Shown here piece after piece: positions 16,433-37,962 of a DNA stretch of 64,000 bases. This stretch comes from Nanoarchaeota archaeon. GTDB taxonomy: Archaea > EX4484-52 > LFW-46. The translations under genes were made by a program, and so were the position numbers. Below the pieces are notes generated by a model. That model was not told where the DNA came from and did no database searches. It was given only the letters and a program-made list of their open reading frames with translations. The DNA lies in NCBI GenBank assembly GCA_018897155.1, contig JAHILE010000040.1, forward strand, positions 29,072 to 93,071, read 5' to 3'. Each line of letters starts with the position of its first letter. The first letter of the stretch is position 1.

Positions 16433-17071
16433 ATGATACCTGAAGAATCCAAAAATCTGGTTCTTGACGAAAGCGCAAAAACAGTAAAAATCACGCTGAA
16501 TCCGCGGCTTTATCCGCAGACTGTTGTGATGCGCGCAGCCTACCGTTTCACCGATGATTTCGACGTTATTGTTGACGGAGATCCTCTGTCAAGCATATTC
16601 GTAACGCTAAAGGTCAAGGCAGAAGATGTGGAAAGCACAACGCGTAAAGATTTGGAACAGCTTGAAAATGCTTTTTTCTCCGAGCTCATCCATGCAAATG
16701 TCGAAGAGACTCAGTCGCGCAGGTATGCTGATACAAGAAACGCGCTGATAGGGGCTGCGCTGAGGAACTTAATGGTCCAGGCAACACCGGAAAAGATTGA
16801 GAATATCGGAAAAAAACAAAAAACAACTGACGAAGAAAGTGCTTTTGATAAAATTTACAAATACATGCCAAAACAGAATTGTGGAAAATGCGGCGCAGAT
16901 TGTGAAAAAACCGCAAAAAAAATACTTACAGGTGCTGCGAATCCAAATACATGTTTTCATCTGAAAAGGGCAGAATTTTCTGTGGTGCGAGAAGGGCTTG
17001 AAAATGCGCTTATTGCGCTAAAAAACAATAATGATTGCTATGAGCTTAATAAGAAAGACGAAAAATGCTGA
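16433..17071 (+). CDS. HxsD-like protein fused to a 4Fe-4S domain
   Basis: 212 residues. The N-terminal part (about 5-115) resembles HxsD of His-Xaa-Ser systems: KTVKITLNPRLYPQTVVMRA then AYRFTDDFDV, and FFSELIHANVEETQSRRYAD matching the bacterial F-x-NELLxxxLRExxxxET helix. The C-terminal part (about 140-185) has YMPKQNCGKCGADCEKTAKK, with Cys150, Cys153, Cys157 and Cys174. This is the C-x2-C-G-x-x-C...C pattern of FeS domains (PF04060 type, as in RnfB and corrinoid Fe-S protein). The fusion suggests electron supply to the radical SAM partners. Its 3' end overlaps the next gene by 41 bases. Confidence 0.75.
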   Translation: MIPEESKNLVLDESAKTVKITLNPRLYPQTVVMRAAYRFTDDFDVIVDGDPLSSIFVTLKVKAEDVESTTRKDLEQLENAFFSELIHANVEETQSRRYADTRNALIGAALRNLMVQATPEKIENIGKKQKTTDEESAFDKIYKYMPKQNCGKCGADCEKTAKKILTGAANPNTCFHLKRAEFSVVREGLENALIALKNNNDCYELNKKDEKC

Positions 17072-17996
17072 TTCCATTCTGGCAAATGGTGCCTGTCAAA
17101 CCGCAGAGCATGGCAAAACAGATTATATTCTTATAGGCATCAACAGAATTTGCGATAATGACTGCCTATTCTGCACAGATAACGAAAGCCATCCGGAATT
17201 AAACACAGATGCTAATGGCGTTATCAAAAGAATCGATTCACTAAATATTAAAAAATACCGCACAATAATACTCTCTGGCGGAGAGCCTGCAGAACAAGAA
17301 GGAATATCGGGAATAATATCACACTTAACTAGAGAGGGTCATACGGTTCAGATAATCACAAACGCAAGAAAATTTTCAGATAATATATTTTCAAAAAATG
17401 TTGCGGATTCTGGCCTGAAAACCGCAATTACTGAAATACATTCTTCGATTCCCGAGGTACATGACTACATCACGCAAAGGCCCGGAAGCTTCAACGAAAC
17501 CGTACTCGGAATAAGAAATCTAATTAATCTGAATGTAAACGTGCAAATAAAAATCATACTGAACCGCATAAATTACAAGACTTTGCCGCAGATTATAAAA
17601 TATATTTGCAGGACATTCCCGGAATCAAAAATCAATATCACAACAACAAACATTAGTGGAAACGCACTAAAAAATAAGGAATTACTCGCGGTCCGATTCT
17701 CTGAGGCTGCTGAGTACATAGAAAAAGGAATAAATGTTGCAAACCGATTTAATGCGCGAGTTTCTATCTCATGTTTGCCGCTTTGCGTGCTTCGTCCGCA
17801 GTATCGCACGTACATATTATCGAATGTACAATACCAGTATCTTGATGTTGGAAGCGATAAGATGCACACGCCAAAAAGGCACTTTGCACCATCATGCGAA
17901 CGCTGTATTGATTCATGCAGATGCATGGGATTTTGGCGCAGCTACCTGGACTTATTCGGAGAAAGCGAAATACCCCCCATATTTGCGAAAGATTAG
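17031..17996 (+). CDS. HxsC-like radical SAM enzyme, copy 1
   Basis: 321 residues. The radical SAM cluster motif C-x3-C-x2-C is RICDNDCLFC (Cys41, Cys45, Cys48), followed by LSGGEP (82-87) and the strand TVQIITNARKFS. The middle part HDYITQRPGSFNETVLGIRNL (read in parts) and the NALKN-type segment match HxsC of bacterial His-Xaa-Ser systems. The C-terminal Cys cluster SCERCIDSCRCMGFW could hold an auxiliary cluster. It overlaps the HxsD-like gene by 41 bases (starts ATG 17031 or 17040). It is a clear paralogue of the enzyme at 18437. Predicted role: C-C or thioether modification of the repeat protein, by inference. Confidence 0.82.
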   Translation: MIAMSLIRKTKNADSILANGACQTAEHGKTDYILIGINRICDNDCLFCTDNESHPELNTDANGVIKRIDSLNIKKYRTIILSGGEPAEQEGISGIISHLTREGHTVQIITNARKFSDNIFSKNVADSGLKTAITEIHSSIPEVHDYITQRPGSFNETVLGIRNLINLNVNVQIKIILNRINYKTLPQIIKYICRTFPESKINITTTNISGNALKNKELLAVRFSEAAEYIEKGINVANRFNARVSISCLPLCVLRPQYRTYILSNVQYQYLDVGSDKMHTPKRHFAPSCERCIDSCRCMGFWRSYLDLFGESEIPPIFAKD

Positions 17997-18004
17997 CAAA
18001 CGCG

Positions 18005-18014
18005 TTTTTATAAT
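18005..18014 (+). promoter_or_regulatory. Probable TATA box of the repeat-peptide gene
   Basis: TTTTATAATT lies about 65 bases upstream of ATG 18075, right after the stop of the first HxsC-like gene. It would give a transcript with a short leader carrying a Shine-Dalgarno AAGGTG five bases before the ATG. A private promoter for the substrate gene inside the operon would let the peptide be made in excess over its enzymes. Confidence 0.45.
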
Positions 18015-18074
18015 TTGGCTGACAATTTAGTATATGCCCAGTAGATGCGTTAGCGTATGTAATAAGGTGCTTCA

Positions 18075-18425
18075 ATGAGTTTAAAGGAAAAACTGGAAAG
18101 AATAAAAAACCAGAACATAAAAAAAGCGTTTGAACTCCCGGAAAATGAAAAAACCGGAGTTGTAAACGGGCTCCTGATTCTTGGCGCGGCCATCGGAGCG
18201 CTAATAAGCCAGCAGCAAACCGCACATAGCACTCCGACGCCGACAAGCTGCGCAGATACATTAAACGACAAAGTAACGGAAACAGAAATACCTGCAAATA
18301 ATCTGGATTTGGGTTTTGTTGAAAACTCCTGGCAGGACCACTGTTGGTGGGATCATTGCTGGTGGGATCATTGGGACCATTGGGATCATTGGGATTTTAC
18401 ATTGTTTGCAAATGGTGGTAATTAG
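18075..18425 (+). CDS. Trp-Asp-His repeat protein, probable substrate of the Hxs-like enzymes
   Basis: 116 residues. Residues 1-28 form a basic helix (LKEKLERIKNQNIKKAF), 29-52 hold a hydrophobic stretch (GVVNGLLILGAAIGALI) that may be a leader, signal or membrane segment, and 53-85 a polar linker. The C-terminus (86-108) is built of WQDHC, WWDHC, WWDHW, DHW, DHW, DF, then FANGGN. It sits between two HxsC-like genes, exactly where a substrate gene is expected, like HxsA, whose C-terminus repeats His-x-Ser. The repeated Trp-x-His and His-x-x spacing suits three-residue cyclophane crosslinks. Start: AAGGTG before ATG 18075. Confidence 0.7.
   Translation: MSLKEKLERIKNQNIKKAFELPENEKTGVVNGLLILGAAIGALISQQQTAHSTPTPTSCADTLNDKVTETEIPANNLDLGFVENSWQDHCWWDHCWWDHWDHWDHWDFTLFANGGN
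18330..18398 (+). repeat. Core repeat coding W-D-H triplets
   Basis: In-frame array of TGG/GAT/CAT-type codons, with two 15-base units (DHCWW) followed by three 9-base units (DHW). Synonymous changes between units (GAC/GAT, CAC/CAT, TGT/TGC) show selection for the peptide rather than simple DNA slippage. Confidence 0.85.
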
Positions 18426-18436
18426 GTGACGCACGT

Positions 18437-19333
18437 ATGACGAATAGATTATACTGTGCATTTAGCTACGAGTGCAACAACAATTGCCTGCATTGCGCAG
18501 CTGATTCGGAAAAACAAAGAAATCTTTCACTGTCTATTGAAGATATTGAACGGCTGCTTAAAAAAATAGACGAAATGAAAGACGTTGAAGTGGAACTTTC
18601 CGGAGGCGAGCCGACGCTAAAGCCAGAATTATATTATTTCCTTGCGCGCCTGACTGAAAGCCATCCGGAAATAAAGCACGTACTGCTTACAAACGGGCGC
18701 ACATTTTCAAATCCCAACAACGCCGCAAAACTGAGTGAATATAATCCATACAGCATTTTTGTGCCGCTTCATGCTGACACGCGAGAACTTCACGACAAAA
18801 TTTCCGGCGCAAAAAACAGTTTTGATGAAACAATGCTCGGCTTAAAAAATATGTATGAGTATCGCCTTCCGGTAAATATAAAAACAGTTGTCAATAAGCT
18901 GAATTATCAGCGCATGCCGAATCTCGTTGAAATGGTTGCGCAGACACTTCCAGAATGCAAATGGATTACGCTGAATGGCCTAGAACTTTCCGGAAGGGCG
19001 CTAAAAAACAAAGATATGCTTGGAATAAGAATAAGCGACACCAAAACACATATAGAGAAAGCCATAGACATGGCAAATAAATACGGACTTAGAATCGCCA
19101 CTTACTCCATCCCGCCTTGCATCTTAAGCAAAGATTATTGGAAATATGTCGGAAGAAAGCGGCGCAACGTCATAATTACAAAAACGCCGACAACAGACAT
19201 GAAACGCGTTGAATTAACGTACGGAACCGTGCCTGAGTGCAAAGAATGCCGCTTTTTTAACGGCTGTACGGGTGCGTGGTATAGTTACTTTGAGGTTTAT
19301 GGAAAAGACGAACTGAAACCGGTGATAAAATGA
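18437..19333 (+). CDS. HxsC-like radical SAM enzyme, copy 2
   Basis: 298 residues. C-x3-C-x2-C is ECNNNCLHC (Cys13, Cys17, Cys20), then LSGGEPTLKPE, LLTNGRTFSNPNNAAKL and VPLHADTRELHDKISGAK-NSFDETMLGLKN, which matches bacterial HxsC (P-L-x-A-D...HD...FDETVLGL) closely. LNGLELSGRALKNKDMLGIR and SIPPCIL follow. The C-terminus PECKECRFFNGCTGAW holds a Cys cluster. It starts 11 bases after the repeat gene, with GGTGA as Shine-Dalgarno, and its stop overlaps the next start (ATGA). Two HxsC-type paralogues in one locus is unusual and suggests two successive modifications. Confidence 0.87.
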   Translation: MTNRLYCAFSYECNNNCLHCAADSEKQRNLSLSIEDIERLLKKIDEMKDVEVELSGGEPTLKPELYYFLARLTESHPEIKHVLLTNGRTFSNPNNAAKLSEYNPYSIFVPLHADTRELHDKISGAKNSFDETMLGLKNMYEYRLPVNIKTVVNKLNYQRMPNLVEMVAQTLPECKWITLNGLELSGRALKNKDMLGIRISDTKTHIEKAIDMANKYGLRIATYSIPPCILSKDYWKYVGRKRRNVIITKTPTTDMKRVELTYGTVPECKECRFFNGCTGAWYSYFEVYGKDELKPVIK

Positions 19334-20730
19334 CTGAAAATAAATCCGATGCTATGTGCAGCACGGTTTGTGCGCCAAACGAATATTTTACAAAAAAACT
19401 ATCAACTGGAAAGTATCTTGTGACTACGCGGCACAGACAGTATGCATTTCTTGACGCCAAGGAATATGACTTGCTTTATAGAGAACAATTTCAAGAAAAT
19501 AAAGAGCTTTTTGAAAAACTGGAAAAAACAGGCATCATATTCACTGAAAAAAACATTAAAAAAATAGTGGGCTCGTTTGAGAAACAATACATATTTCTTT
19601 TCTTTCCAAAATCGTTCCGAATTAATTTGTCAAATGAGTGCAATCTCATGTGCAGTTACTGCCTGTCAAATGCGACCCCCACCCAGCACGAAACAATGTC
19701 AGACGAATTAGTGGATGCAACAATCAAATTCATGCTTTCTGCGCCCGGAAAAAAGTTTTATATGGAATTTCAGGGAGGCGAACCGCTTGTAAAATTCAAT
19801 GAAATAAAAAAATTCGTAGCGAAAATAAAACTTGCTGCTGAGGTGGGAAAAAAAGAAATAGAAAAAATAGTTATTGTAACAAATATGACTCTCATGACTG
19901 AAGAAATAGCAGAATATCTGCTCGAAAACAACATAGGGTTATGCTCTTCCCTTGATGGGCCTGAAGAGCTTCACGATATCCATCGCAAGTTTGGCGGCGG
20001 CGGCGGAACTTACAAAACAGTTACAAAATGGCTTTCGTACTTTCGGGAGCGAGGTAAGACAATAAATACGCTGCCCACAATAACTGCACACAGCATAAAA
20101 TTTGGCGCGCGAAAAATAATTGACGAATATCTCAAACAGGGATGCATTCGAATCCCCATTAGGGCAGTAATTCCGGTTGGGCGGGCAAAACAAAATGACA
20201 ACCACACATATTCTGCAGAAGAGTTCATTGCGTTTTGGAAAGATGCTGTCGAATACCTGGTGGAAATAACGCTGAATGGCAACCCCGTATTTGACCCTAA
20301 CACGCAAGCAATGCTAAGAAACATAATGGATGGCCCGGTATCCTATATGTGCATGCGAAAACCATGCGGAGGTGCAATATCGCACATGTCGATATCCTGT
20401 GACGGAACAATCATGCCTTGCGACCTTTCAAAAACACTGCCTGAAATGGCTATCGGAAACGTGCGCGAAAGCCATATTGATGTTGCTCTAAGGACAATTA
20501 ACATGAATGCGCGAACTTCTGATTTCCAACCGCTCTGCAACACCTGCGCGTTCGGGCCGTACTGCGGAAACTGCTACACCAGAACGCGTGCCGTTTTTTC
20601 CGATGAAACCCCGAGAACTCCGCGCGACTTTGAATGTAAAGTAAACAAGGCAATGTTTACATATCTTTTTGAAAAAATGCAGGACGCAAAATACGTAAAA
20701 GTTTTCCGCATTTGGATAAATGGCAGGTGA
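19330..20730 (+). CDS. HxsB-like radical SAM/SPASM maturase
   Basis: 466 residues. The N-terminal part (about 15-80: KYLVTTRHRQYAFLDAKEYD) resembles the leader-handling region of HxsB. The radical SAM core has ECNLMCSYC (Cys104, Cys108, Cys111), EFQGGEPLVKF, VIVTNMTLMTEE and LCSSLDGPEELHD. The C-terminus is a SPASM domain with auxiliary cluster cysteines: CMRKPCGG, ISCDGTIMPCD, LCNTCAFGPYCGNC and a last FECKVNKAMFTYLFE. This family includes enzymes that form three-residue cyclophanes on aromatic or His motifs. It is the strongest match to a maturase for the W-D-H repeat, coupled by ATGA to the upstream HxsC-like gene. Confidence 0.87.
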   Translation: MTENKSDAMCSTVCAPNEYFTKKLSTGKYLVTTRHRQYAFLDAKEYDLLYREQFQENKELFEKLEKTGIIFTEKNIKKIVGSFEKQYIFLFFPKSFRINLSNECNLMCSYCLSNATPTQHETMSDELVDATIKFMLSAPGKKFYMEFQGGEPLVKFNEIKKFVAKIKLAAEVGKKEIEKIVIVTNMTLMTEEIAEYLLENNIGLCSSLDGPEELHDIHRKFGGGGGTYKTVTKWLSYFRERGKTINTLPTITAHSIKFGARKIIDEYLKQGCIRIPIRAVIPVGRAKQNDNHTYSAEEFIAFWKDAVEYLVEITLNGNPVFDPNTQAMLRNIMDGPVSYMCMRKPCGGAISHMSISCDGTIMPCDLSKTLPEMAIGNVRESHIDVALRTINMNARTSDFQPLCNTCAFGPYCGNCYTRTRAVFSDETPRTPRDFECKVNKAMFTYLFEKMQDAKYVKVFRIWINGR

Positions 20731-20734
20731 TTAA

Positions 20735-21583
20735 TTGTATTCGCTCATATTAAAGGCAGCAATAGTTGCAGCAATCTTGAAAGCGACAAACGCGTTTAAA
20801 TGGCGCGCAGTTATTGTATATTTCTTGCTGTCAGTTTTTATGATATACTTCTCCGGCGCACAATATGCTCCGGAAAGAATCCTAGTATACACATTTGAAT
20901 TTTTTGCAGCATATGTCGCAATCGGCATCATTAAGTACCGCATAAATCGCGCAAAAACAAAAACCCCCGTATACGGAGGAGTTACTCTTTCGCTGAATTC
21001 GCTTCTGTTAATGTTTTCAATGGGCTACATGTTTGCGCTTAGTGAAATAAATAAATATGCTTCGTTTTTTGTTACAATGCTTCTTTTTTTTATTCTCAAT
21101 AAAAACGCTTACCGAAAAAAAATGATTTTGTTTTGGAAGGCCGTATTTATGTTGTCAATAATTCATTCGCTAATAATTTCCGGCGGCAGAACGCTAATAA
21201 CCCCGACGTATTTTGTTGCGACATACGCGGTAATAACACATCTTTTTTTCGCTGCAAAAGATGCGTTCAGTTATGCACATTCGCCTGAAGAATTAACCGA
21301 GGGTATGATGCCGGCAGAAAGTATTGTTCAAGACAATAAAAAATATATTTTCGGAAGCACGCTGTTCCCGAGTGCGTTTGGGCTTATTAGATATGTCGCA
21401 GGCGACATTCTGCTGAAAAGACGTGTTGTGGCTTCATTTTTTGTTCCGCTAACAAAGAAAAACATTCTTGAGATAAGAAAAATCGCAAAGGAACATAAAC
21501 GTCCTTTTTTTCTTGTGCAAAAAGAAATAGACTTTTTGCCATTCATTGTTTTGGGCGCAATTGTTGCACTTTTAACAATGTAG
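20735..21583 (+). CDS. Polytopic membrane protein with prepilin-peptidase-like C-terminus
   Basis: 282 residues with about six membrane helices in the first 170. The C-terminal part (EELTEGMMPAESIV, LTKKNILEIRKIAKE, DFLPFIVLGAIVALL) resembles the C-terminal region of archaeal A24 prepilin peptidases, but no catalytic Asp pair (D...GxGD) is visible in the membrane part. It starts with TTG at 20735, four bases after a GGTGA and five after the HxsB-like stop, so it is the last gene of the operon. It may export or cleave the modified peptide or be a scaffold. That role is inference. Confidence 0.5.
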   Translation: MYSLILKAAIVAAILKATNAFKWRAVIVYFLLSVFMIYFSGAQYAPERILVYTFEFFAAYVAIGIIKYRINRAKTKTPVYGGVTLSLNSLLLMFSMGYMFALSEINKYASFFVTMLLFFILNKNAYRKKMILFWKAVFMLSIIHSLIISGGRTLITPTYFVATYAVITHLFFAAKDAFSYAHSPEELTEGMMPAESIVQDNKKYIFGSTLFPSAFGLIRYVAGDILLKRRVVASFFVPLTKKNILEIRKIAKEHKRPFFLVQKEIDFLPFIVLGAIVALLTM

Positions 21584-21611: not shown

Positions 21612-23705
21612 CTATGCAGCAATACAACACACCTTACTTAAAAGAGGCATATCAACACAGCCATCACTACATGCCTCCATACCCGGTGGACAGCCGCCCA
21701 TAAACTCAAATACAAGGTCACATGTTGGTGGTGGTGGCAATCCTACTTTGCAGCAGATTTTAGTTATTTCCTGGCAATCTGAAATAGTTATTTTAGGAAC
21801 TTCATTTTCTCCTTCCAGACACGCACCCAAAAAATAGCACGTTCCGCCGTTATCGGCGCACGTTAATCCAGCTGGTGCGTCTTTGCAGCAAAGTTCACCT
21901 GCATCACAAGTTCCTGAAGCGACGATCTTGCCAACAGGACATCCCGCTCCTGCTTCACATGTCTGGCCTGCTGTATTTTCACATGTGTATAATAGCGGCG
22001 AGGGCACTTCAATTGGAGGTACTGTTTGAGGCCCAAAAGCACCGCCGCTTTGCGTAGAACAAACATGGCCGAAATCATCGCATGCATTGTCATCCACTAT
22101 ATCTATTTCGACAAAAAAGGTAAACTGGTACGGCACCCATTTCTTTTCAACGCTGTCAAAAACATTATATTTTTCATCGATAATCGTCACATTTATTGGA
22201 ACGTTTTTTAAAACATATCTACTGTCATAATGCATGTAACAAGTATTTGAAGTATCACAACCGCCAGTACAACCAGATGTTGATGAGCATTTGCCCGTAT
22301 TCACAGCCAATCCGCTTTTGTATCTATAATATTCCAAATTTTGGCCGCTGCACCATTCGTTTTCATCGGCGGATGGTTGAGAATTTATGGGGCATATTTG
22401 AAAATCTGGTGCAATGCTAAGTTTCAATTTTATATCCGCCCCCACATTATCAAACTGATTTGATATATCACCGGCGATAATATCCAAGCCGCTGTTAAGG
22501 ACAATCCGAAAATCAACTGCAGTATATTGTGGCGTAGGGTCTGAAGGGCATCCGTTCGCATAACTCAATCTTCCAGAATTGCATCCAAGTGTGTTTGATG
22601 GTATTTGATGATCTACCAACGTATTAAGTTGATTATACCATCTCGGCTTCACCCACGCCTCATAATTATCAACAAAAAACTTCGCGACCCCGTACATTCT
22701 CCAGTACCTGATTTGAGCGTCTTCTTCTACAAGGTTCCAGTTTTTCAGATTGGCGTCTGCGCTCAAGGAGCTTATTTTGTCGGGCCCATAAGCACTTCCT
22801 CTCAAAAAGCCTTCGCCGTTATTGAGCGTCTCGTAAACGCCTTTCCCTGCCGGCACAAAAAAAGCATTTAACGGTTCTATCTCAAAGCGTTGTAATTTGA
22901 GTTTTTGTCGGTAGCTTTCTATACTTGCGTTAAGTGCTGCATTAAGATTATTCACAACATCTTTGTCATATATTGAAACCGCCATAACACGAATATGCGC
23001 AACATCAACGGCAGAGCCAGTAAATATGAGTGTAATATCCTCAACAGAATTTTGCACAATGCTGTTTCCAATTGGAAGGATTGTCGTGCCTGAGGTTGTG
23101 ATTGTTGTAACACCATTACAATTTGCATTCTGGCAAATCTGGACATCAACAGATTCTTCTTTCAGCATAATCACATTAAACATTATGTTCAGCTGATAGT
23201 CTCCTCGCACAACATCCTTCATAGTCTCGACATACTCCGCGGCGGAAACTACTGTGTATGTCTTGGCATCTGTTCCAAGCTTAAAATTGGCATCAATATA
23301 AGACAAATACGGCATTCGTTTTCGTATTGTGCTCTCGGAAGTTCCAACTGTCTTGCATCGGGAAACCGCAAAATTCAGAACGCCGTCGGTAATGTCCATT
23401 TTCGGCACAGGATCATTTCCAGGATCTCCATCAGTAGCTGCAGTAATTACTGCCGCGCTTACTCCGCCATGCACTCCAAGCTCCTTTGCAGTATTCATGA
23501 GCCCAAAAAAAAGCGCGGTTTTTTCAAACGACTGCTTTATTCCGTGAAGCGCAAGATTAGCATCAGATATTGCGTCAGCACTTCTTGAAGATGTGCCCTG
23601 CGCAGCAGAAAATCTAAAAAGATCATATAATAAGGCACTGCCCAAAGCAATAACTAAAAAGAAGACCCCGAACAAAACAAAATGCCTTGACAATGCTTTT
23701 TTCAT
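21612..23705 (-). CDS. Large membrane-anchored Cys-rich secreted protein
   Basis: 697 residues. One N-terminal membrane segment (about 9-27, FVLFGVFFLVIALGSALLY), then a long extracellular region with few cysteines. The last 130 residues hold three Cys-rich units ending in CCK or CC (AGELCCKD, ITKICCKVG, LSKVCCIAA), each preceded by a C-x-x-GG-x-C or C-x-G-x-x-C pattern, like small disulphide-knot domains. It is the last gene of the leftward pilin-like operon, convergent with the Hxs-like operon (28 bases apart). Function unknown. Adhesion or a pilus tip is possible. Confidence 0.6.
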   Translation of the reverse strand: MKKALSRHFVLFGVFFLVIALGSALLYDLFRFSAAQGTSSRSADAISDANLALHGIKQSFEKTALFFGLMNTAKELGVHGGVSAAVITAATDGDPGNDPVPKMDITDGVLNFAVSRCKTVGTSESTIRKRMPYLSYIDANFKLGTDAKTYTVVSAAEYVETMKDVVRGDYQLNIMFNVIMLKEESVDVQICQNANCNGVTTITTSGTTILPIGNSIVQNSVEDITLIFTGSAVDVAHIRVMAVSIYDKDVVNNLNAALNASIESYRQKLKLQRFEIEPLNAFFVPAGKGVYETLNNGEGFLRGSAYGPDKISSLSADANLKNWNLVEEDAQIRYWRMYGVAKFFVDNYEAWVKPRWYNQLNTLVDHQIPSNTLGCNSGRLSYANGCPSDPTPQYTAVDFRIVLNSGLDIIAGDISNQFDNVGADIKLKLSIAPDFQICPINSQPSADENEWCSGQNLEYYRYKSGLAVNTGKCSSTSGCTGGCDTSNTCYMHYDSRYVLKNVPINVTIIDEKYNVFDSVEKKWVPYQFTFFVEIDIVDDNACDDFGHVCSTQSGGAFGPQTVPPIEVPSPLLYTCENTAGQTCEAGAGCPVGKIVASGTCDAGELCCKDAPAGLTCADNGGTCYFLGACLEGENEVPKITISDCQEITKICCKVGLPPPPTCDLVFEFMGGCPPGMEACSDGCVDMPLLSKVCCIAA

Positions 23706-23709
23706 AAAA

Positions 23710-24228
23710 TCATCCCCTTGTTTTCAATACCACTTTGGCAACGTCGCCGTTTGGAAGAGCGATGTACTCAAAGGACAAAACATTGAAACCGGTAGGGCCC
23801 ATACTGGGCATTCCATAACATCCCGAAACCCCGAGAAGTGGTGGGCAGAGTACGGAATGTTCTACATAAAAATCATATGTTGTAATAGATAGTTCCATTA
23901 ACCACCCAAAACAATCCACAGGTTTCACAGAGTCTGTTTTCCCTCCGTACTCTATTTGAACCACGTCGCCTAAAAAGCTGTTTGTTTTCCCTTCGCCAAT
24001 ACCTATTGCTAACACATCCCTTAAAGGCAGTTTTGTATTCGGTGCGCAATCCGTGCTTTCAAGTATGCTGTGAAGCGCATATTGTGTAGTTTTGCTCTTA
24101 TCATCATATAATAGTGACGTTACTTTCAGATAAGCCACAATTGCTATTATCACTATGAATATCAGCATTATAACCAAAAGCCATGGCGCAAGAGGCTCAG
24201 TCTGTCCGCACCTTTTTTTGTTATTCAT
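23710..24228 (-). CDS. Membrane-anchored pilin-operon protein
   Basis: 172 residues from ATG 24228 (MNNKKRCGQTEPL), placed 13 bases after the upstream stop. A longer start at 24354 would overlap that gene by more than 100 bases. One N-terminal membrane segment (about 14-36), then an extracellular domain with scattered cysteines (CAPN, CFGW, CPPLLGVSGC). It fits the single-anchor exported proteins of this operon. No family recognised. Confidence 0.6.
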   Translation of the reverse strand: MNNKKRCGQTEPLAPWLLVIMLIFIVIIAIVAYLKVTSLLYDDKSKTTQYALHSILESTDCAPNTKLPLRDVLAIGIGEGKTNSFLGDVVQIEYGGKTDSVKPVDCFGWLMELSITTYDFYVEHSVLCPPLLGVSGCYGMPSMGPTGFNVLSFEYIALPNGDVAKVVLKTRG

Positions 24229-24241
24229 ATAATCATCTAAC

Positions 24242-24949
24242 TTAGCTACAGGCATCATCAAACCCCACTGTTTGAAGCGATTTATCACATATTTTTGAAC
24301 AAAAACATTTTGTATAAGGGCATTGAATGTCGCAAAGGCATAGCGGATATCCATCTGCGTAAAAATCAGTTCCTGAATCCGCGTCCAATATTACTTTTAT
24401 TGATGCAAGAGCCATTTTATCATCGCTATTTACGACGCCGGAAAATCTTAAAAAATTTCCATCACTGCCGTAATTATAAGGGGATGGCATAAGCGTTTCG
24501 AACCCGAGCGGCCCTCCAACAGTCGAATATAAAAAAAAACCGCGATCCGAAATGCAACGTTTAGTTATTCCGCGAGCATGCGTATTATATGCATAATCAA
24601 TATTGTTGTTGTTCTGAAAATACCACGTATCGGTCCCGCTTTTGACTTCAATATAATACAGAGAGCCGGGCAGGTCCAGCGGTTCCGATGTTCCGGCGCA
24701 AACAATGCTATTGTTGTACTTGTCGAGAGCAGTCTTGTTAAATACAAATTTTTCTGTTGATCCTTTTACGTCATTCAAATTTATGCACGGAGCTGACAAA
24801 AGCTTTTCTGAAAGCGCTATTGAAGATCCGCGAGTTTCTATATCTCCTATAACCGTCTTTGCCCATACAAATATTACAATAAGCGCAACTGCGCAAGCAG
24901 TGCCTATGATGACGTAAATTGCAGACATTAAATTATCAACAAATTCCAT
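24242..24949 (-). CDS. Membrane-anchored protein with Cys-rich C-terminus
   Basis: 235 residues. One membrane segment near the N-terminus (about 10-30: AIYVIIGTACAVALIVIFVW), then an extracellular domain. The last 45 residues hold nine cysteines (YPLCLCDIQCPYTKCFCSKIC...), suggesting a disulphide-stabilised module. It is followed at 13 bases by the next gene of the operon. No known family recognised. Confidence 0.6.
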   Translation of the reverse strand: MEFVDNLMSAIYVIIGTACAVALIVIFVWAKTVIGDIETRGSSIALSEKLLSAPCINLNDVKGSTEKFVFNKTALDKYNNSIVCAGTSEPLDLPGSLYYIEVKSGTDTWYFQNNNNIDYAYNTHARGITKRCISDRGFFLYSTVGGPLGFETLMPSPYNYGSDGNFLRFSGVVNSDDKMALASIKVILDADSGTDFYADGYPLCLCDIQCPYTKCFCSKICDKSLQTVGFDDACS

Positions 24950-24958
24950 TATATCCCT

Positions 24959-25426
24959 CTAGCAAAAAGATTCTTGAAATACTGCATTGCAGCAGGCAGT
25001 ACCTTGGACACAAACTTCGACAAACGGCCGGCATGAATCAGCCGGATCTTTTTTCTTAATAACGCAAAATGCACGGGCTTCAATTGGCGTAATTATCTGC
25101 TTTAGCTCCGCTGTGTAGTGGCTCATTTTAAGCTTCGGCGTTAATGCTTCAATAGTGATGGCATCGCCGGAGTACTGAACTTGTATTGAATCTTCATCAA
25201 TTTCCACAGTATAATTTTCATCATTCGGCAGTTTATATATCGCAATGCCGTTTTCAGCCACAGATATTTGGACGATGGTGTTTCTTAGCCCCATTATGGC
25301 AAGCTCTGTTTCGCCCCGCTTGTCTGCAAAAACATTGGCTGTTGTGGAAAGGGCAAATACCAATATGACAACCACTATAAGAAGCGCTCCGATACCGTTT
25401 ATAACATTTCCAACAATGCCTTTCAA
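24959..25426 (-). CDS. Pilin-like membrane-anchored protein
   Basis: 155 residues. A short basic start (MKGIVGNVINGIG) leads into a 20-residue hydrophobic helix, then a beta-rich domain (about 45-115) and a Cys-rich end (AFCVIKKKD, SCRPFVEVCVQGTACC). The layout is that of archaeal type IV pilin-like or minor pilin proteins, although a canonical class III cleavage site is not clear. It ends ten bases before the downstream start. Confidence 0.55.
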   Translation of the reverse strand: MKGIVGNVINGIGALLIVVVILVFALSTTANVFADKRGETELAIMGLRNTIVQISVAENGIAIYKLPNDENYTVEIDEDSIQVQYSGDAITIEALTPKLKMSHYTAELKQIITPIEARAFCVIKKKDPADSCRPFVEVCVQGTACCNAVFQESFC

Positions 25427-25430
25427 AAAA

Positions 25431-25640
25431 TCACCAAAAGCTCAAAAGACCGGCGCATGCAGACCAGTCCCATCTCAGGCAATCCAAAATTTTTGCCGTT
25501 CTTTCAGCAACAGGAATTGCCGGACCCATTGCTGCGCTGATAAAGTAAAAAACAATCACTAAAAGTATTATAAATATAAGCAGCTGCCGGATACCGTCTA
25601 TAGAAAATACAAACGCGCCCTTCCGCCTTGAAAAAATCAT
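25431..25640 (-). CDS. Small pilin-like protein
   Basis: 69 residues: basic start MIFSRRKGAFVFS, where RRKG followed by a Phe/Ser could be a class III prepilin site, then a hydrophobic helix (about 17-37) and a short tail ending with two cysteines around a Trp pair. It is probably processed or simply membrane-anchored. A 38-base AT-rich gap (25641-25678) upstream could hold an extra promoter. Confidence 0.55.
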   Translation of the reverse strand: MIFSRRKGAFVFSIDGIRQLLIFIILLVIVFYFISAAMGPAIPVAERTAKILDCLRWDWSACAGLLSFW

Positions 25641-25678
25641 ACTATTATATTATATCAAAGGCTATTAATATAAGTTCT

Positions 25679-25900
25679 CTATAGCAGCCAGCAGAGCGGC
25701 AGGCACTTGACAAGGCCATTCTCAGGAATACATTTGCCGCAGTCTGAAAGAGACTTGAACATGCCTGTTGATTTTGTCAAAAAGCCGGAATTCGTATTTA
25801 CAAAAAACAAAATTACTAAAACCGCCATAATCAGGCCCAGAATTATGATTATGGTTGTTGAATTCACCTCTACCTGGCCTTTAGGTGATTTTGAGTTCAT
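25679..25900 (-). CDS. Small pilin-like protein
   Basis: 73 residues. PKGQVEVNSTTIIIILGLIM at the N-terminus has the charged G-x-(V/E) type prepilin site followed by the hydrophobic helix, then a short tail with four cysteines (DCGKCIPENGLVKCLPLC) that probably make two disulphides. It lies 18 bases after the 651-residue protein gene in the same operon. Confidence 0.6.
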   Translation of the reverse strand: MNSKSPKGQVEVNSTTIIIILGLIMAVLVILFFVNTNSGFLTKSTGMFKSLSDCGKCIPENGLVKCLPLCWLL

Positions 25901-25918
25901 AGAAGTCCTCGATTGCGT

Positions 25919-27874
25919 TCAGGCTTTTGGCTGACATACCGCTAAGACATTATTCCAGATACATGCAGAACATTTCGGGCAATTTGTCTTGGTATTGTAT
26001 GTCGGAGTTCCGCACAGATCGCCGCATTTGCTTACACAGGTTTCTAAAACCCATTTACATAGGCTTGAACAAACATCACAATATGTCTGGCTAGTGCCCG
26101 CATATTCCGCACAATTATATCCGCAGGAAAAGAACGCCACGCTCTTTGACCATGTAACCGGAGTTGCCAAATTATCTGCGCTTGCAGATGTTGCTAATGT
26201 GGCGCTGACCGATGTTTCAAGCAGAGGCACTGTCGGCGAATCCTCTTTAAGGAGAACAAATGAGTAATTCCTTGACGCACTTACCGGAATATTTATATTA
26301 TCGCCGCCCAAAAGAGCCAAATCCTTTGCCCCTAACTTTGCGCTAATATGATCGCTAACTTTTATCGCTGCCATGGTACCCGTATTTTTTACAGTGACGT
26401 TAACAATGCGATCACTGACGAGGTCTTCATAAATTCTTGAAACACCGATTTTTTTGTCTTGAATATATACATTCGTTATCTCAAGCTTTGGCGCTTTGCA
26501 GCTTCCATCTGCGCATCCTGTTAAGCAGGAATCATCTGCCTTAGTAGTATATTTACAGCCCGTCACAGTATCAGAATATCCAGAATCGCTCGGGCCTGAA
26601 AGGACATAATCACCGTCACATCCACCAGTTTGCGATGAACACGACCAGGTAAAATCTTTTTCAATATAATTTATTATGTATGGCTTCGTATCAAATGTTT
26701 TTATGCAAAGAACGTTTTTGCCATCCCCTTGGCGCTCAACACGCAGCGTATTTTTTCCATCATTAAAGCCGCCAACTCCGACCTTAGGCAGATCAAACAG
26801 AATTTCTTTAGGATTTGCGGGATTAATTTTCTTCCCTGCAATAACTTCCACAGTATTCAGCTTAACCACAACATGCGCGGGATTCCAAATATCGCTTTCA
26901 AATATCGCGCCCATTTGCTTTCCAGGCCCAAACGGCAGATCTGCGTCAAAAGTGACTGCCGGGCAAGTCCATGAAAAACTAACATCACGATCTGCTGTTT
27001 CAATTCCGCGTTTTACGTGAATTTTCAAAGTATACCCGCCATTATACAAAGCTGCCACAGGCACTCTAAAACTATAAGACGCCATATTTTCGATGCAAGC
27101 AACAAGAGGACCTAGATTGCATTTTTGTTCAACCCCTCCTTTCCGTAATATAACTGTTAGACCGTCCACGGGGTTTTCAAGTGGTCCCATACCCACTTTA
27201 ATTTTAACATATACTTGTTCTCCTGCTTTTACTGAAGATATTTTAATGTCACAATTCACATCTGAACAAAGAATAACGCGATTTACGCCCGTTTCTTCTT
27301 CCGCTTCTTCTTCATCTTCCTGAATTGGTTTCGCGCCTTTGTCAACCAACATCGTAATCGGCTTTGACGGGTAATTATCTGCGCTGACAGTTAGCGTCAC
27401 ATACCCCTGCTGAATGTTTGTGGTGCTTATTGTACCTTGATAAACTCCAGGAGTTGTGGTTTCATCGAACGCGTCCGTTATGTATGGCCCTGTTATTGTT
27501 CCGCCGGTAATCGGAGCGCCATTATATGTCAGTGCGATGTTTATTATATTCTCCCCCTCGCCTAGTTTCTCCGGATAAGTTGCTTCAATTGTCTTTGCCA
27601 GATGATCTAAAAATTCCCTGCAGGTCTGATCATTCATCTGCGGGTCTTTTACCGTCAAACATGCGGCGCCTGTCGGATTATCATTGCACACTTTTGTGCA
27701 ATAATCTATTTTTGAAGAATTGCTTCCAAGTGAGGGATCTGTGCCTTTTATTATTTCTTCCGTTCCTGTTGCTCGCCCGTTTAGGATAATATAAATAATT
27801 GCAGAAATTGCCAAGAGCACGATTATGTAAATCACCATATTCATTGAAACTTCAAACGTGCCTTTGCGTTTCAT
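25919..27874 (-). CDS. Large pilin-like surface protein with Ig-like domains and Cys-rich end
   Basis: 651 residues from ATG 27874, which has GATGGTG just upstream. KRKGTFEVSMNMVIYIIVLL gives a prepilin-like site plus helix. Residues about 95-170 look like an Ig or carboxypeptidase-regulatory fold (YNGAPITGGTITGPY, GYVTLTVSADNYPSKPI). There follows an acidic linker (EDEEEAEEETG), further beta-sandwich segments (about 195-430) and a CARDB-like stretch (about 455-560, VNVTVKNTGTMAAIKVSD). The last 80 residues hold many Cys pairs. It is probably an adhesin-like minor pilin. Confidence 0.62.
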   Translation of the reverse strand: MKRKGTFEVSMNMVIYIIVLLAISAIIYIILNGRATGTEEIIKGTDPSLGSNSSKIDYCTKVCNDNPTGAACLTVKDPQMNDQTCREFLDHLAKTIEATYPEKLGEGENIINIALTYNGAPITGGTITGPYITDAFDETTTPGVYQGTISTTNIQQGYVTLTVSADNYPSKPITMLVDKGAKPIQEDEEEAEEETGVNRVILCSDVNCDIKISSVKAGEQVYVKIKVGMGPLENPVDGLTVILRKGGVEQKCNLGPLVACIENMASYSFRVPVAALYNGGYTLKIHVKRGIETADRDVSFSWTCPAVTFDADLPFGPGKQMGAIFESDIWNPAHVVVKLNTVEVIAGKKINPANPKEILFDLPKVGVGGFNDGKNTLRVERQGDGKNVLCIKTFDTKPYIINYIEKDFTWSCSSQTGGCDGDYVLSGPSDSGYSDTVTGCKYTTKADDSCLTGCADGSCKAPKLEITNVYIQDKKIGVSRIYEDLVSDRIVNVTVKNTGTMAAIKVSDHISAKLGAKDLALLGGDNINIPVSASRNYSFVLLKEDSPTVPLLETSVSATLATSASADNLATPVTWSKSVAFFSCGYNCAEYAGTSQTYCDVCSSLCKWVLETCVSKCGDLCGTPTYNTKTNCPKCSACIWNNVLAVCQPKA

Positions 27875-27884
27875 AAACACACCA

Positions 27885-32497: not shown

Positions 32498-34678
32498 TTA
32501 TAGTTTTAAGAATTTCCAGTCCGATAAGTTATTCTCATCATAATTGTATCTTTCATTATCGTTATATCTACAACTCTCATCTTTAAAGATAATAATCCCG
32601 CCAAATAGCTTTTTATTATGCTTTTGATTTTGTGTTTTAATGTATTTGCTTAGTGCTTCTGCTTTTTCTTTAGCGACTTTTGCGGTTATTCCACTTTTAG
32701 TATCAAAAATACCTATTCTTCCATCATCAAGCATAATTACAAAATCAACATAAAATCCTCTTTCCACACCTGCATCGTCTTTATATTTTACTGCAAGGTA
32801 TTTTTTATCTGATTCTCCGTTTTTGAACCACCATTTAACAGAATTTTTTGGATTTTCAAGTAGTTTTATGAAATCTTTTTCTGGCACACTTTCGGCAGAA
32901 ATAAAATAAGGTTTCATAATTGCTTTTTTATGTGGCAATTCTTTGTATTTGCTGTTATAAGTTATTAGTTTGGGAACATTCCAGACAAGATGCTCTGTTT
33001 CTCTTTGTTCTGGCAATCCTCCAACAATCTTGAGTTTGTATTCCTCTTTTGCTTCATTAATGCAATCAGTAAATAACTGATTATTTTCTTCTCCTAAAAT
33101 TATCTTTTGAGCAAAAGTTTCATCTTCGATTTTTATTACTTTTTCAAAAAACTTATAGAGTGCTGTTCTTATTCTTCCTTGTGAATCAGCAGGAGCAAAA
33201 GGAGTACAGCTTCCTCTTACAAATAAGTCAAATCTATGTTGTAATTCAACAGCACTTAACTTAAATTGCATTTCTCCTTTATGTTCTACTGTTTGAACTT
33301 TATCTAAAACCAATATTTTTCCATCAACCATTATTTTAGTTACGAGAGATTTTGGCTTTAGATTTATTTTCTTTGCAAGTTCGCTTTTTTGTGCAATTTC
33401 TAAGAATAATTTTGTAAATTCTCCAGAAAGTCTTGTCTTTTCTCTTTGTCTTATGAGATAGATTGAATTAAGATCAATATTGCTATATAATTCTTCTCTT
33501 CTTTTTGCTTCGTAAATTGTGATATAATCTTTAGCGACTTCTTCAGTTATGTTAATGTCAGCAAGATTTGTGAATACATAACCTTTATTCAATTCTTCAG
33601 TTTCATAATGCTTAAACTCTGGCATTCTCATTATTCTGCCTACTGTCTGAATGGTAAAGTCCATACTTTGCATATCTCTGAACATTACCAGAATGTATGC
33701 TCTTGGACAATCCCAACCTAATGCTATAGCTTGTTTGAAAATAAGAACTTGAACATCGTTATCAGGCATTTCAATATTCTCAAGGTTGGTTTTTTCTTCT
33801 GATAAATAAATCCCTAATTTTCCGTTTTCTGTTGTTATTTTGAATTTATCTCTTAAAATTCCCGTAATCTGTTCTTGCCTGTCAATAACTCCTGTCTTTT
33901 TATCAGGAAGCTGAATTAAAATTAATGGATTGATATCGGATTTTTCTTTTTCTAATAGTTTAAGCATTTCCTGTCTTTTCTTTAAAGCACATTCAATAAC
34001 TAATTCATCAGGAGATTTGTCAGAAACTTTTCCTTTGTCTAATTCTGGATTTATGGCAATTTCTTTCTTTATCATTCCCTCTTTTCTTACATCTTCAAAT
34101 TCTACAAGAACATTATAAAAAGAATGAATGTGCGGAGTAGCTGAAACTTCCAAAATTACATCGGGATCAATATCATTTATTAAATTTCTTGAAGTTTCTG
34201 TTTTAGCAGTAAAGTGACTTTCGTCTATAATTAAAACTATTTTTGTGCCGTCTTCTTTCGTGTTTTCAATAATTTTAGATAAATTTCTTTCCTGTTCATT
34301 TTCTCTAATATAAACATTATCTGTTTTGTTTATGCTTTCCCAATTCAAGAACAAAATTTCATCTGGCTCAATTTTATTACCTACTAAATCTTCAAAAAAT
34401 TTACACTCTATCGCTCTTGTCGTAGAATAATATTTATCTAATTTTTCTTTACTTTGTGTATGTAATTGTCTTGGAGCTGTCCAAATAAAAGCGATTTGCT
34501 TTCCATCGTCTCTTCTATCAACAAGTCTTTTAATAAATTCGGCCACCATTAAAGTTTTACCAGAGCCTGTCGGAGATTTAAAAACTAAAGTTTCTCTTGA
34601 ATCTCGATTTAGTAATTCGTTAATCTGTTCTTTTAGTTTTAAAATTGCTTTCTCTTGATAATCTTTAATTTCAATCAT
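32498..34678 (-). CDS. Type III restriction enzyme, Res subunit
   Basis: The cleavage and translocation subunit, which cuts DNA after ATP-driven contact between two unmodified sites. 726 residues: Walker A PTGSGKT (36-42), DESH box (152-155), SATPH motif III, and helicase motif VI QTVGRIMRMPE. The C-terminal nuclease shows the PD-(D/E)xK type strand pair VDFVIML and IGIFDTKSG (about 660-690). Low GC, clearly below the neighbouring core genes, suggests transfer. Its start overlaps the Mod stop by eight bases, the usual mod-res order. Confidence 0.9.
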   Translation of the reverse strand: MIEIKDYQEKAILKLKEQINELLNRDSRETLVFKSPTGSGKTLMVAEFIKRLVDRRDDGKQIAFIWTAPRQLHTQSKEKLDKYYSTTRAIECKFFEDLVGNKIEPDEILFLNWESINKTDNVYIRENEQERNLSKIIENTKEDGTKIVLIIDESHFTAKTETSRNLINDIDPDVILEVSATPHIHSFYNVLVEFEDVRKEGMIKKEIAINPELDKGKVSDKSPDELVIECALKKRQEMLKLLEKEKSDINPLILIQLPDKKTGVIDRQEQITGILRDKFKITTENGKLGIYLSEEKTNLENIEMPDNDVQVLIFKQAIALGWDCPRAYILVMFRDMQSMDFTIQTVGRIMRMPEFKHYETEELNKGYVFTNLADINITEEVAKDYITIYEAKRREELYSNIDLNSIYLIRQREKTRLSGEFTKLFLEIAQKSELAKKINLKPKSLVTKIMVDGKILVLDKVQTVEHKGEMQFKLSAVELQHRFDLFVRGSCTPFAPADSQGRIRTALYKFFEKVIKIEDETFAQKIILGEENNQLFTDCINEAKEEYKLKIVGGLPEQRETEHLVWNVPKLITYNSKYKELPHKKAIMKPYFISAESVPEKDFIKLLENPKNSVKWWFKNGESDKKYLAVKYKDDAGVERGFYVDFVIMLDDGRIGIFDTKSGITAKVAKEKAEALSKYIKTQNQKHNKKLFGGIIIFKDESCRYNDNERYNYDENNLSDWKFLKL

Positions 34679-36422
34679 TCTTGAAAACCTTCCTATAAAC
34701 TTTTAAGATTGTTTCTGGAATAGGACATAAAGTAACTTTGTTTTTAATGGTTTTAAATTCCTTTGTCGGCACAGAATCATCATGCGAGAATACATATACA
34801 TGGATTTTTCCGTTTATTTTTTCTGCTTCTTTGACAAATTCATCAATATACTCGTCATCAAATACTATTCCTAAATGCAGTTTATCATTTTTGAAAATCT
34901 TGAATTTCTTTGTGTCTTTGACTTTTTCAAAAGTATTTTCCTTAATGCAAAGCATTTCTGTGCAGTTATCAACCAGTTTACGCTTGTTTTTATCTGTTTG
35001 CTCTGCTTCAACAAAATCTGTTTTATAATATTTGAGATTACCGCCAAGACCTTCGATTTTTTCGTTAGATGCGTTAGTATATCCTTTAATTATTTTTTGT
35101 ATTCTTGGATAACATACATCTGAGCAAATATTGCCTTCATTATTAGTGCATAAAATAAATGATAAATCTTGATTGAGTTCATCGTTTAGTTCCATTACTG
35201 CATGGCCTGTAGTTCCTGAACCTGCCATGAAATCTAAGACAACGCCTTTTTCTGGACAAGAATATTTAATTAGTTCTTTAAGTAATTTCTTAGGTTTTGG
35301 ATAATTAAATAATTGTTTACCAAATATATTTCTAAGCTCCTTTGTCGCAGCTTGATTTAAATCAGATTGCATTATTTTTATTCCATTTTCGTCTTCTTCA
35401 GAATCAATGGCGACTTTTTTTATAACCGATGCTTCTATCCATGTTGATAAAGGTTTAAAGTTAGATTTTAACTCGTTTGCAAACCGTTTATATTGTGGTG
35501 TTCCGTTCTCTTTTTTTGGAAAGATTACTTTACCTGCTTTAATCTCATTTAACATTCTAACTCTCTCAAAACGCCAAACCCTGCTTGGATTAGCAGGATA
35601 AACCTTTCCTGTTTTAGGGTCGGTTATATCATAATATAAATTAGGTCTTTCATCTTTTGTTTTACCGCAAGTAAGATCTCCTGCTGTCCAAGGGCCCCTA
35701 GGGTCGTTATTAGGATTCTTATAGTTGCTTAAATCTTTCTCTATACCAAAAAGAGAGGCTTTTTCTGATTTTTTATAGCAAAAAATATATTCATGGTCAG
35801 TTGATACTAAATTTTTTGGATCATTTGCTCCACTTCTTCTTTTCCAAACAAAATTAGCTACAAAATTGGTCTCTCCAAATATATCCTCACAGAGTAGTTT
35901 TAATTGTGCATTTTCATTATCATCAATCGAGATAAAAATAATTCCTGTATCTTTTAGTAGATTTTTAGCAAGAGCTAAACGCTTACTCATAAAAGAAAGC
36001 CATTTACTATGTCTATATCCATCTTCTTTATCTACAAATTTATCATTATACTTAAAATCCTTATTTCCTGTGTTATACGGTGGATCTATATAGATAACAT
36101 CCACAGAATTTTTATGTGTGAAATTAAGAACAGCAAGTGAATGGTAATTATCTCCTTCAATTAAAAGATTAACTGGCTTGTCTTTATCTGAATTTATCTC
36201 TTTATCTTTTACTTCTGCTAAAACTGGAAACTTATCTTTACTTTCTGGGCTAAATTCTTCTTTAGTCTTTTCGCCTTCCCAGTTAATGAATAAGTCAAAA
36301 TCTTCTTTAGTTTTCTCTCGTTCCCAAACTAAACCGTAAGTTTTTTGCTTCTTTAAAGCCAAAATTTCTCTTATGAGCTCCTCTTTTGACCATTCAATGT
36401 AATTTCTTTTTCCATTAACCAT
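34671..36422 (-). CDS. Type III DNA methyltransferase, Mod subunit
   Basis: Recognises the site and methylates adenine N6. 583 residues, with the beta-type motif order: DPPYNTG (113-119, motif IV) before DFMAGSGTTG (397-406, motif I, SAM binding). The region between them is probably the target recognition domain. Preceding TEEF and KDKPVNLLIEGDNYHSL are typical of Type III Mod. It is upstream of and overlaps res. The start is ATG 36422, and the Ymh gene ends 54 bases upstream. Confidence 0.92.
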   Translation of the reverse strand: MVNGKRNYIEWSKEELIREILALKKQKTYGLVWEREKTKEDFDLFINWEGEKTKEEFSPESKDKFPVLAEVKDKEINSDKDKPVNLLIEGDNYHSLAVLNFTHKNSVDVIYIDPPYNTGNKDFKYNDKFVDKEDGYRHSKWLSFMSKRLALAKNLLKDTGIIFISIDDNENAQLKLLCEDIFGETNFVANFVWKRRSGANDPKNLVSTDHEYIFCYKKSEKASLFGIEKDLSNYKNPNNDPRGPWTAGDLTCGKTKDERPNLYYDITDPKTGKVYPANPSRVWRFERVRMLNEIKAGKVIFPKKENGTPQYKRFANELKSNFKPLSTWIEASVIKKVAIDSEEDENGIKIMQSDLNQAATKELRNIFGKQLFNYPKPKKLLKELIKYSCPEKGVVLDFMAGSGTTGHAVMELNDELNQDLSFILCTNNEGNICSDVCYPRIQKIIKGYTNASNEKIEGLGGNLKYYKTDFVEAEQTDKNKRKLVDNCTEMLCIKENTFEKVKDTKKFKIFKNDKLHLGIVFDDEYIDEFVKEAEKINGKIHVYVFSHDDSVPTKEFKTIKNKVTLCPIPETILKVYRKVFKND

Positions 36423-36476
36423 TTATTTGTTCCCCTTTATTCTCAATATAACCTATGATGTTTATTAATGTTTTTC

Positions 36477-37115: not shown

Positions 37116-37461
37116 AAGCCCATTTCTTTAATTTTGTCCCATTATTTAGCGTCTTGGTCTTTTTAAGAGAGCCATTCCTAACAATATTCCTTAGTGGGAG
37201 CGTAATGTCTGATGCTTTAAAATGGTAGTCTTTTTCTTTTAACTTATCCAACATTTCTTTTACAGTTCTAGGTTGATTAAAAAAGTTTCCTAAAGAAAGA
37301 ATCTTCTCAGTAGTGCTTCCTTTTCTGTACCAGTTAGCTAATTTCTCACTTTTCACTTCTTTGGATTTAGACGCTGGCTCTTTGCGTTCTAAAAGGGTAA
37401 TTCTTCTTTCATGGTCATCAAGAATTGCCTTAAACTCTTTTTCTGTTATCATCTTTATCAT
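37102..37461 (-). CDS. Winged-helix-like protein, island companion 1
   Basis: 119 residues from ATG 37461, which overlaps the upstream stop (ATGA). An N-terminal coiled coil (EKEFKAILDDHERRITLLERK) and Lys-rich linker lead to a C-terminal domain (about 50-119) with GNFFNQPRTVKEMLDKLKEK and a final WAYV strand. That domain resembles the C-terminal half of the next gene (GFFNKPKSLAELKQGLEEQG ... WVYVRR), so the two are paralogues. Probably DNA- or RNA-binding. It is not a family I can name. Confidence 0.62.
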   Translation of the reverse strand: MIKMITEKEFKAILDDHERRITLLERKEPASKSKEVKSEKLANWYRKGSTTEKILSLGNFFNQPRTVKEMLDKLKEKDYHFKASDITLPLRNIVRNGSLKKTKTLNNGTKLKKWAYVSD

Positions 37462-37826: not shown

Positions 37827-37911
37827 TTTTAATCGCCCTTAATAACATAATAGTGTAATAATGCAATAGTATTTAAATCTTTCGCCTATTTGTCCAGTGG
37901 TTCGTAGTTTC

Positions 37912-37958: not shown

Positions 37959-37962
37959 TCTT

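Follow-up and report, generated by a model that had tools for sequence, protein, structure and literature searches.

Hxs peptide-maturation systems are recognised by models for their precursors (HxsA, HxsA2, HxsA3 and HxsA4), which repeat a His-Xaa-Ser (HxS) motif, and for the maturation proteins HxsB, HxsC and HxsD (TIGR03976, TIGR03977, TIGR03978, TIGR03979, NF038296, NF038309 and NF038313). In the open-access literature that we searched, the system is rarely mentioned, and we found no report there of how the Hxs enzymes act on the HxS repeat and none of Hxs in archaea. Radical S-adenosylmethionine (SAM) enzymes with a SPASM domain are known to join C6 or C7 of Trp to the beta-carbon of Asn, Asp or Arg two positions on (i, i+2), and C2 of His to the beta-carbon of Ala or Arg at the same distance (PMC11002830). 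Here we describe an hxs-type operon on a 64,000-nucleotide (nt) stretch of the archaeal contig JAHILE010000040.1 (the window), in which the repeated aromatic residue is Trp.

The operon has six plus-strand genes at 16433–21583, in the order HxsD-like, HxsC1, Trp-repeat precursor, HxsC2, HxsB and membrane protein. It is a divergent Hxs maturation system whose core has been swapped from His to Trp, and we think it rather likely that its product is a chain of i, i+2 cross-links, exported beside pilin-like proteins.

A Trp repeat in place of the HxS core

The precursor has a leader (residues 1 to ~50) with an invariant Gly28 and a hydrophobic stretch (alignment A7), and a C-terminal core in which eight Trp fall within the last 31 residues (WQDHCWWDHCWWDHWDHWDHWDF). 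It contains no HxS repeat, has no convincing match in Pfam or NCBIfam and has no relative in the Protein Data Bank. Trp precursors do not match the HxsA, HxsA2, HxsA3 or HxsA4 models, whereas the HxS precursors of other loci do.

The sequence-only reading, made before any search, placed a Trp-Asp-His repeat at the centre of the locus. This is right for the window but not as a general motif, which is instead a Trp at every third or second position, mostly as W-x-N or W-x-D. Three styles of Trp-type core can be distinguished: (WDH)n, found in the window and partly in L033; period-3 (WxN/WxD)n, in L040 and L043–L048; and (Wx)n, W-x dipeptides such as WNWSWCWCWSWGWGWG, in L037, L039, L041 and L042. 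The sole residue common to all of them is Trp, which recurs at a spacing of 3 (51 cases) or 2 (28 cases) and is followed at position +2 by N (36), W (28), D (22) or H (12). Within the period-3 cores, N or D occupies this position in 38/54 cases, while 2000 shuffles gave a mean of 18.9 and a maximum of 29. In the HxS cores of other loci, 563 of the 655 His spacings are of three residues, and Ser stands at +2 in 598 cases. By these statistics, what the two core types have in common is an aromatic residue with a small or polar partner at i+2.

Loci with W-x dipeptide cores (L035, L037, L039 and L042) also encode a U32-family peptidase-like protein of ~350 amino acids (aa; PF01136, E 5e-9), on the opposite strand between HxsD and the precursor.

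Maturation enzymes of the Hxs families

For each enzyme, the top NCBIfam family is an Hxs model: TIGR03976 for HxsD, TIGR03977 for HxsC1 and HxsC2, and TIGR03978 for HxsB. The family assignments first made from the letters of the sequence are therefore borne out by hidden Markov model (HMM) search, with all bit scores below NCBI's curated equivalog cut-offs (HxsD 39.4 against 50; HxsC 137 and 175 against 268; HxsB 280 against 370), so by NCBI's own rule this is a divergent relative of Hxs. The radical SAM and SPASM cysteines of HxsB are invariant (alignment A1; PF04055 and PF13186), as is CxxxCxxC in HxsC (alignment A2; PF04055). When the alignment columns of Trp-type and HxS-type HxsB were compared, the filter left just positions 34 and 292, so core specificity cannot simply be read from the HxsB sequence.

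HxsC2 is present in all complete Trp-type loci, and its copies form one clade in the HxsC tree (Shimodaira–Hasegawa-like approximate likelihood ratio test, SH-aLRT, 98). The second HxsC is a separate gene, HxsC1, in the window and L033, where the tree places it with the C-terminal halves of the fused HxsC-HxsC proteins (SH-aLRT 98). In L040, L043, L044 and L045 it is fused to HxsC2 in one protein of ~590–610 aa, and it is absent from the remaining Trp-type loci. Because of its grouping in the tree, the second HxsC is, on phylogenetic grounds, an old paralogue that is now separate, fused or lost; the same tree rules out a recent duplication. The sequence-only reading was thus correct that a further HxsC is present, but it is not an addition specific to this locus. 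Several DPANN genomes have clusters of HxsC paralogues (up to nine matches per genome), some of them fused, at loci that are HxS-type or unassigned (L049, L052, L061, L064 and L067).

HxsD carries a C-terminal extension with a four-Cys Fe-S domain (PF04060), which may pass electrons and which the sequence-only reading had overlooked. This domain occurs only in the window and in L033:3796-4497, both of which have a free-standing HxsC1, and in several other Trp-type loci HxsD terminates in a short CxxC-like tail. Residues 18–124 of HxsD are modelled by AlphaFold as beta-beta-alpha-beta-beta-alpha, with middling structural matches to small alpha/beta folds (Pcc1, S6-like; Z up to 7.0). Comparison of this model gave no sign of a RiPP (ribosomally synthesised and post-translationally modified peptide) recognition element, though it does not exclude one.

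Distribution and single origin

When 120 relatives were searched with HxsC2, many genomes of the order proved to share the arrangement HxsD-(HxsC1)-precursor-HxsC2-HxsB-membrane protein. A Trp-precursor profile finds its target in 15 of the 34 genomes of the phylum (here and below, most likely Nanohalarchaeota) and gave no convincing score elsewhere among 394 archaeal genomes. Since gene order, enzymes and Trp-repeat precursor recur together in these 15 genomes, the association is not due to chance, and related archaeal genomes do have W-rich small proteins at the same place, as the sequence-only reading would predict. A single HxsC2 sequence used as a query against viral contigs and genome contigs found no relatives.

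The two Trp loci of genome G030 are 99.97% identical to those of G023, and the contigs concerned (L034–L037) are identical to this degree over their full length, so one assembly probably has contaminating contigs. The G030 loci probably come from cross-binning, and for this reason 14 genomes is a safer count than 15. G007 and G023 each have two different Trp-type loci; the window genome has one.

A scan of genome contigs with the HxsB alignment (A1) yielded 80 named loci, in Nanohal(o)archaeota, Aenigmatarchaeota, Woesearchaeota, Diapherotrites, candidate phyla radiation (CPR) bacteria, Clostridia, Elusimicrobia, Myxococcota and others. Outside the Trp clade, all recognised precursors have HxS-type repeats or close derivatives of these, except that L088 repeats Thr-Thr-Ser. 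Several archaeal HxS precursors match the NCBIfam HxsA3/HxsA4 models, and classical Hxs systems with HxS cores are widespread in DPANN lineages. The suggestion of an archaeal branch of Hxs with a new core therefore holds for the divergence and the core, but archaea also have the classical system: what is new is the Trp core, not archaeal Hxs as such.

The L088 precursor (L088:4104-5741) combines an HxsA-type leader and the Thr-Thr-Ser repeat with a long C-terminal domain, and a similar domain follows the HxS-type repeats of L078, L104 and L121.

In the HxsB tree, one clade (SH-aLRT 99) unites the 14 Trp-type rows to the exclusion of the 42 HxS rows, with a single change of core label; the branch beside the Trp clade holds L078, an HxS-type locus. 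On this tree, Trp-type loci have a single origin and share common descent with HxS-type maturases. When a Trp-leader profile was run over 11,193 open reading frames, the HxS precursors of L078 (E 0.006) and L049 (E 0.028; L090 is a duplicate record of this locus) came directly after all 23 Trp precursors. Direct comparison of the Trp and HxS leaders gave a weak result (hhalign P 0.011).

A membrane protein related to prepilin-type peptidases

Nearly all homologues of the membrane protein match PF06819, the C-terminal domain of archaeal A24 peptidases (Table 1). Foldseek and VIA-align found no convincing relative of its structural model, and the family is assigned from sequence profiles. The possibility that it is specific to Trp-type loci was ruled out by a profile search, which finds proteins of 340–380 aa at HxS-type loci, mostly beside HxsD or HxsB. 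Ten representatives of these proteins match PF01478, PF06819 or both, and hhalign aligns the membrane protein with the A24 peptidases of HxS-type loci (values in Table 1). Both catalytic Asp residues (in DIKxxKIxN-like and AGDxKL-like motifs) are present in 20/20 aligned HxS-type copies versus 0/10 Trp-type copies, which lack the N-terminal helices that carry the first Asp and have another sequence in place of the second motif. Judged from these profiles and alignments, the membrane protein is homologous to the A24 (prepilin-type) peptidases of HxS-type loci but degenerate, its active site having been lost. An intact A24 peptidase is encoded separately, elsewhere in the window genome.

A dedicated A24 gene is found in or beside the hxs operons of archaea and Clostridia, usually next to HxsD; examples at HxS-type loci are L079, L086, L097, L094, L118 and L119. 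By a rough count, in which several flanks are incomplete and some genomes are counted twice, an A24 gene with the second Asp motif accompanies 22/34 HxS-type or unassigned archaeal loci, 12/13 Firmicutes loci, 0/9 CPR loci and 3/25 other bacterial loci. In Oscillibacter ruminantium (L126:2165-5986), one reading frame of 1273 aa has an A24 domain at its N-terminus and an HxsC radical SAM domain near its C-terminus. We found no mention of a link between A24 and hxs in the open-access literature searched. Hxs precursors may be, or may once have been, processed by a prepilin-type peptidase, a partner which in the Trp variant would have lost its active site.

Operon layout and neighbouring genes

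The six genes occupy the place and order in which they were first read, as reading frames and HMM matches confirm. They had been described as overlapping or a few bases apart, which is true of four spacings (in gene order −41, +78, +11, −4 and +4 nt) but not of the 78-nt gap upstream of the repeat gene, the sole exception to the tight packing. HxsD starts with ATG at 16433, with an in-frame TTG at 16406. Nop56, fibrillarin and S17e genes adjoin the operon, from which we conclude that the host is an archaeon; a sigma-70 promoter scan is uninformative in such a host. An Rfam search found no RNA element.

A conserved convergent operon on the minus strand, also overlooked in the sequence-only reading, encodes proteins of 697, 214, 235, 155, 69, 73 and 653 aa, which are membrane-anchored and pilin-like; the 69-, 73- and 653-aa proteins have N-terminal KG-type signal motifs, as in archaeal pilins. 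This operon is linked to every Trp-type locus and is also present without hxs in some genomes. The 697-aa family occurs in 15/15 genomes with a Trp-type locus and in 7/19 other genomes of the phylum, one of which matches weakly (Fisher p 1.4e-4, uncorrected for relatedness), and in none of the HxS-type loci examined. The congener G001 has the order Nop56, S17e, ~80 nt and the 697-aa gene, with the hxs operon and its membrane protein absent as a block. Because G001 lacks exactly that block, the six hxs genes are one cassette, beside a pilin-like operon that is able to exist without it.

Table 1. Positions of the hxs genes and the adjacent operon in the window (pLDDT, predicted local distance difference test)
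Feature	Position	Strand	Evidence
HxsD-like	16433..17071	+	TIGR03976 E 5.8e-10; PF04060 E 1.8e-5; AlphaFold pLDDT ~97 in core domain
HxsC1, radical SAM, HxsC family, second paralogue	17031..17996	+	TIGR03977 E 5.8e-40; CxxxCxxC intact
Trp-repeat precursor, HxsA-like, 116 aa	18075..18425	+	homologues in 15/34 phylum genomes; alignment A7
HxsC2, radical SAM, HxsC family	18437..19333	+	TIGR03977 E 1.7e-51
HxsB, radical SAM/SPASM maturase	19330..20730	+	TIGR03978 E 4.2e-83; PF13186 SPASM
Membrane protein, degenerate A24 peptidase homologue	20735..21583	+	PF06819 in 7/8 homologues; hhalign 99.3%, E 8e-21
Convergent pilin-like operon	21612..27880	-	synteny; KG-type signal motifs

Elsewhere in the window, positions 32498–38532 are a stretch of low G+C (~0.30–0.32) that was likely acquired and encodes a type III-like restriction enzyme (PF04851), a DNA methylase (PF01555) and an IS200-like transposase (PF01797).

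Proposed product and mechanism

By analogy with triceptides, the radical SAM enzymes would most likely cross-link each Trp to the residue at i+2. A cross-link chain is the best reading because the Trp and His cores of Hxs systems both have i, i+2 pairs like those of known substrates. The leader of the precursor would recruit HxsB, HxsC2, HxsC1 and the accessory HxsD, and the radical SAM enzymes would then modify the repeats one after another, joining each Trp indole to the Asn, Asp, His or Trp two positions on to give a run of small rings along the chain. The hydrophobic stretch of the leader could bring the modified chain into or across the membrane, and it would end outside, beside the pilin-like proteins of the adjacent operon. 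The membrane protein, a former prepilin-type leader peptidase without its active site, may now only hold or guide the precursor.

The chief alternative, which we consider unlikely, is that HxsB and HxsC form no ring but abstract hydrogen, from Trp or adjacent residues, leaving D-residues, dehydro-Trp or hydroxylated residues (i.e., epimerisation, dehydrogenation or oxidation). Radical SAM peptide enzymes include epimerases, and the sequence accommodates ring formation and these other outcomes alike. However, the strict i, i+2 pairing in HxS and WxN/WxD cores suggests a product that involves two residues, and HxsB has the auxiliary-cluster cysteines of SPASM enzymes, which usually form cross-links.

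A thioether product (ranthipeptide or sactipeptide), with a core Cys linked to Asp or other residues and the Trp repeats serving only as scaffold, seems to us quite improbable. It would fit the thioether-forming maturase PapB, which is the next best HMM of HxsB after TIGR03978 (E 2.6e-42), ahead of DynA (a distant similarity, E 7.9e-29) and the much weaker YhhB and GrrM/OscB models (E 2e-18 and 3e-17), and it would fit the window core, where Cys lies close to Asp (HCWWDHCWWDH). Cys is not constant, however: HxS cores mostly lack it, and the core of L043 (WGNWSDWTNSWNNWSDWTNWSDWSDWEHWGNWGNWGNWGNGD) has none, which rules out a thioether as a general rule and leaves Trp as the shared residue. It is very unlikely indeed that the repeat protein serves at the surface to bind metal or haem while the radical SAM enzymes act elsewhere (e.g., on the pilin-like proteins): the His, Asp and Cys of the window core could bind metal and Trp-type loci are linked to the pilin-like operon, but several cores (L043, L048) have few His or Cys in their repeats, the repeat gene sits inside the enzyme operon, with HxS precursors comparably placed in other Hxs loci, and the pilin-like operon also exists without hxs.

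Several points weigh against a cross-linked, exported product of a divergent Hxs system. Every enzyme falls under its equivalog cut-off, and the nearest characterised relatives of HxsB by HMM are thioether-forming (PapB) or sulfatase-maturing, not cyclophane formers. We found no structure of an Hxs product in the open-access literature searched, so the cross-link is proposed by analogy, and the (Wx)n cores would require W-to-W links, unlike W-x-N. Leader homology scores are weak (both the hhalign P and the profile E given above), and the whole case for export and display comes from leader hydrophobicity and gene linkage.

We also offer, tentatively and as a doubtful extension, a picture in which all Hxs precursors are prepilin-like: their leaders would be read by a dedicated A24 peptidase, and their repeats would be cross-linked in the cytoplasm and then displayed at the cell surface as stiff chains of aromatic rings. 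In Nanohalarchaeota, Trp would have become the aromatic residue, the peptidase would have turned into a non-catalytic escort, and the product would have joined a pilus-like surface complex, which perhaps touches host or neighbour cells.

A sister system with orthologous enzymes, working on Trp instead of His, is a ready-made comparison: any modification common to both must depend on an aromatic side chain together with its partner at i+2. Cyclophane-forming enzymes are known to act on Trp-x-Asn and Trp-x-Asp, so there is a definite structure that can be tested directly, and the swap to Trp in one group of tiny archaea makes Hxs chemistry much easier to test. The empty site of G001 serves as a natural null, and the A24–hxs link in archaea and Clostridia hints at how Hxs precursors may be processed. 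If the cross-link chemistry is true, the enzymes of this operon together build long tandem Trp cross-links.

Comparison with known systems

Like described Hxs systems, the window operon encodes homologues of HxsB, HxsC and HxsD together, with Hxs models as their top matches, and has an in-operon precursor with a basic leader, a hydrophobic stretch and a C-terminal period-3 aromatic repeat. Its membrane protein, too, has a homologue at HxS-type loci, the A24 peptidase. Unlike described Hxs systems, it has Trp rather than His as the aromatic residue, with N, D, H or W taking the place of Ser at +2. The A24 homologue of the window type lacks both catalytic Asp residues, the enzymes score below the curated cut-offs, and Trp-type loci are linked to a pilin-like operon that is unseen at the HxS loci examined.

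Triceptides (three-residue cyclophanes made by XncB, OscB, MscB, HaaB and YhhB) share with this system an aromatic-X-X motif and a radical SAM/SPASM maturase, and the proposed substrate motif, Trp with Asn or Asp, or His, at i and i+2, resembles theirs; the cross-link here is a proposal. The maturase belongs to another family, since the best model for HxsB is TIGR03978 and not GrrM/OscB or YhhB, and Trp-type loci differ in having up to 14 tandem Trp and in each encoding two or three distinct radical SAM enzymes. Darobactin and dynobactin (DarE, DynA) likewise combine Trp-containing motifs with radical SAM/SPASM enzymes, with the cross-link again only proposed for Trp-type loci. Unlike the Trp-type system, they are short, single-core antibiotics of Gram-negative bacteria, with one enzyme and no tandem repeats.

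With A24 leader peptidases (PF01478, PF06819), the membrane protein shares the C-terminal Arc_PepC domain and the transmembrane layout. It differs from them in lacking the N-terminal helices that bear the first Asp and in having its AGDxKL motif replaced.

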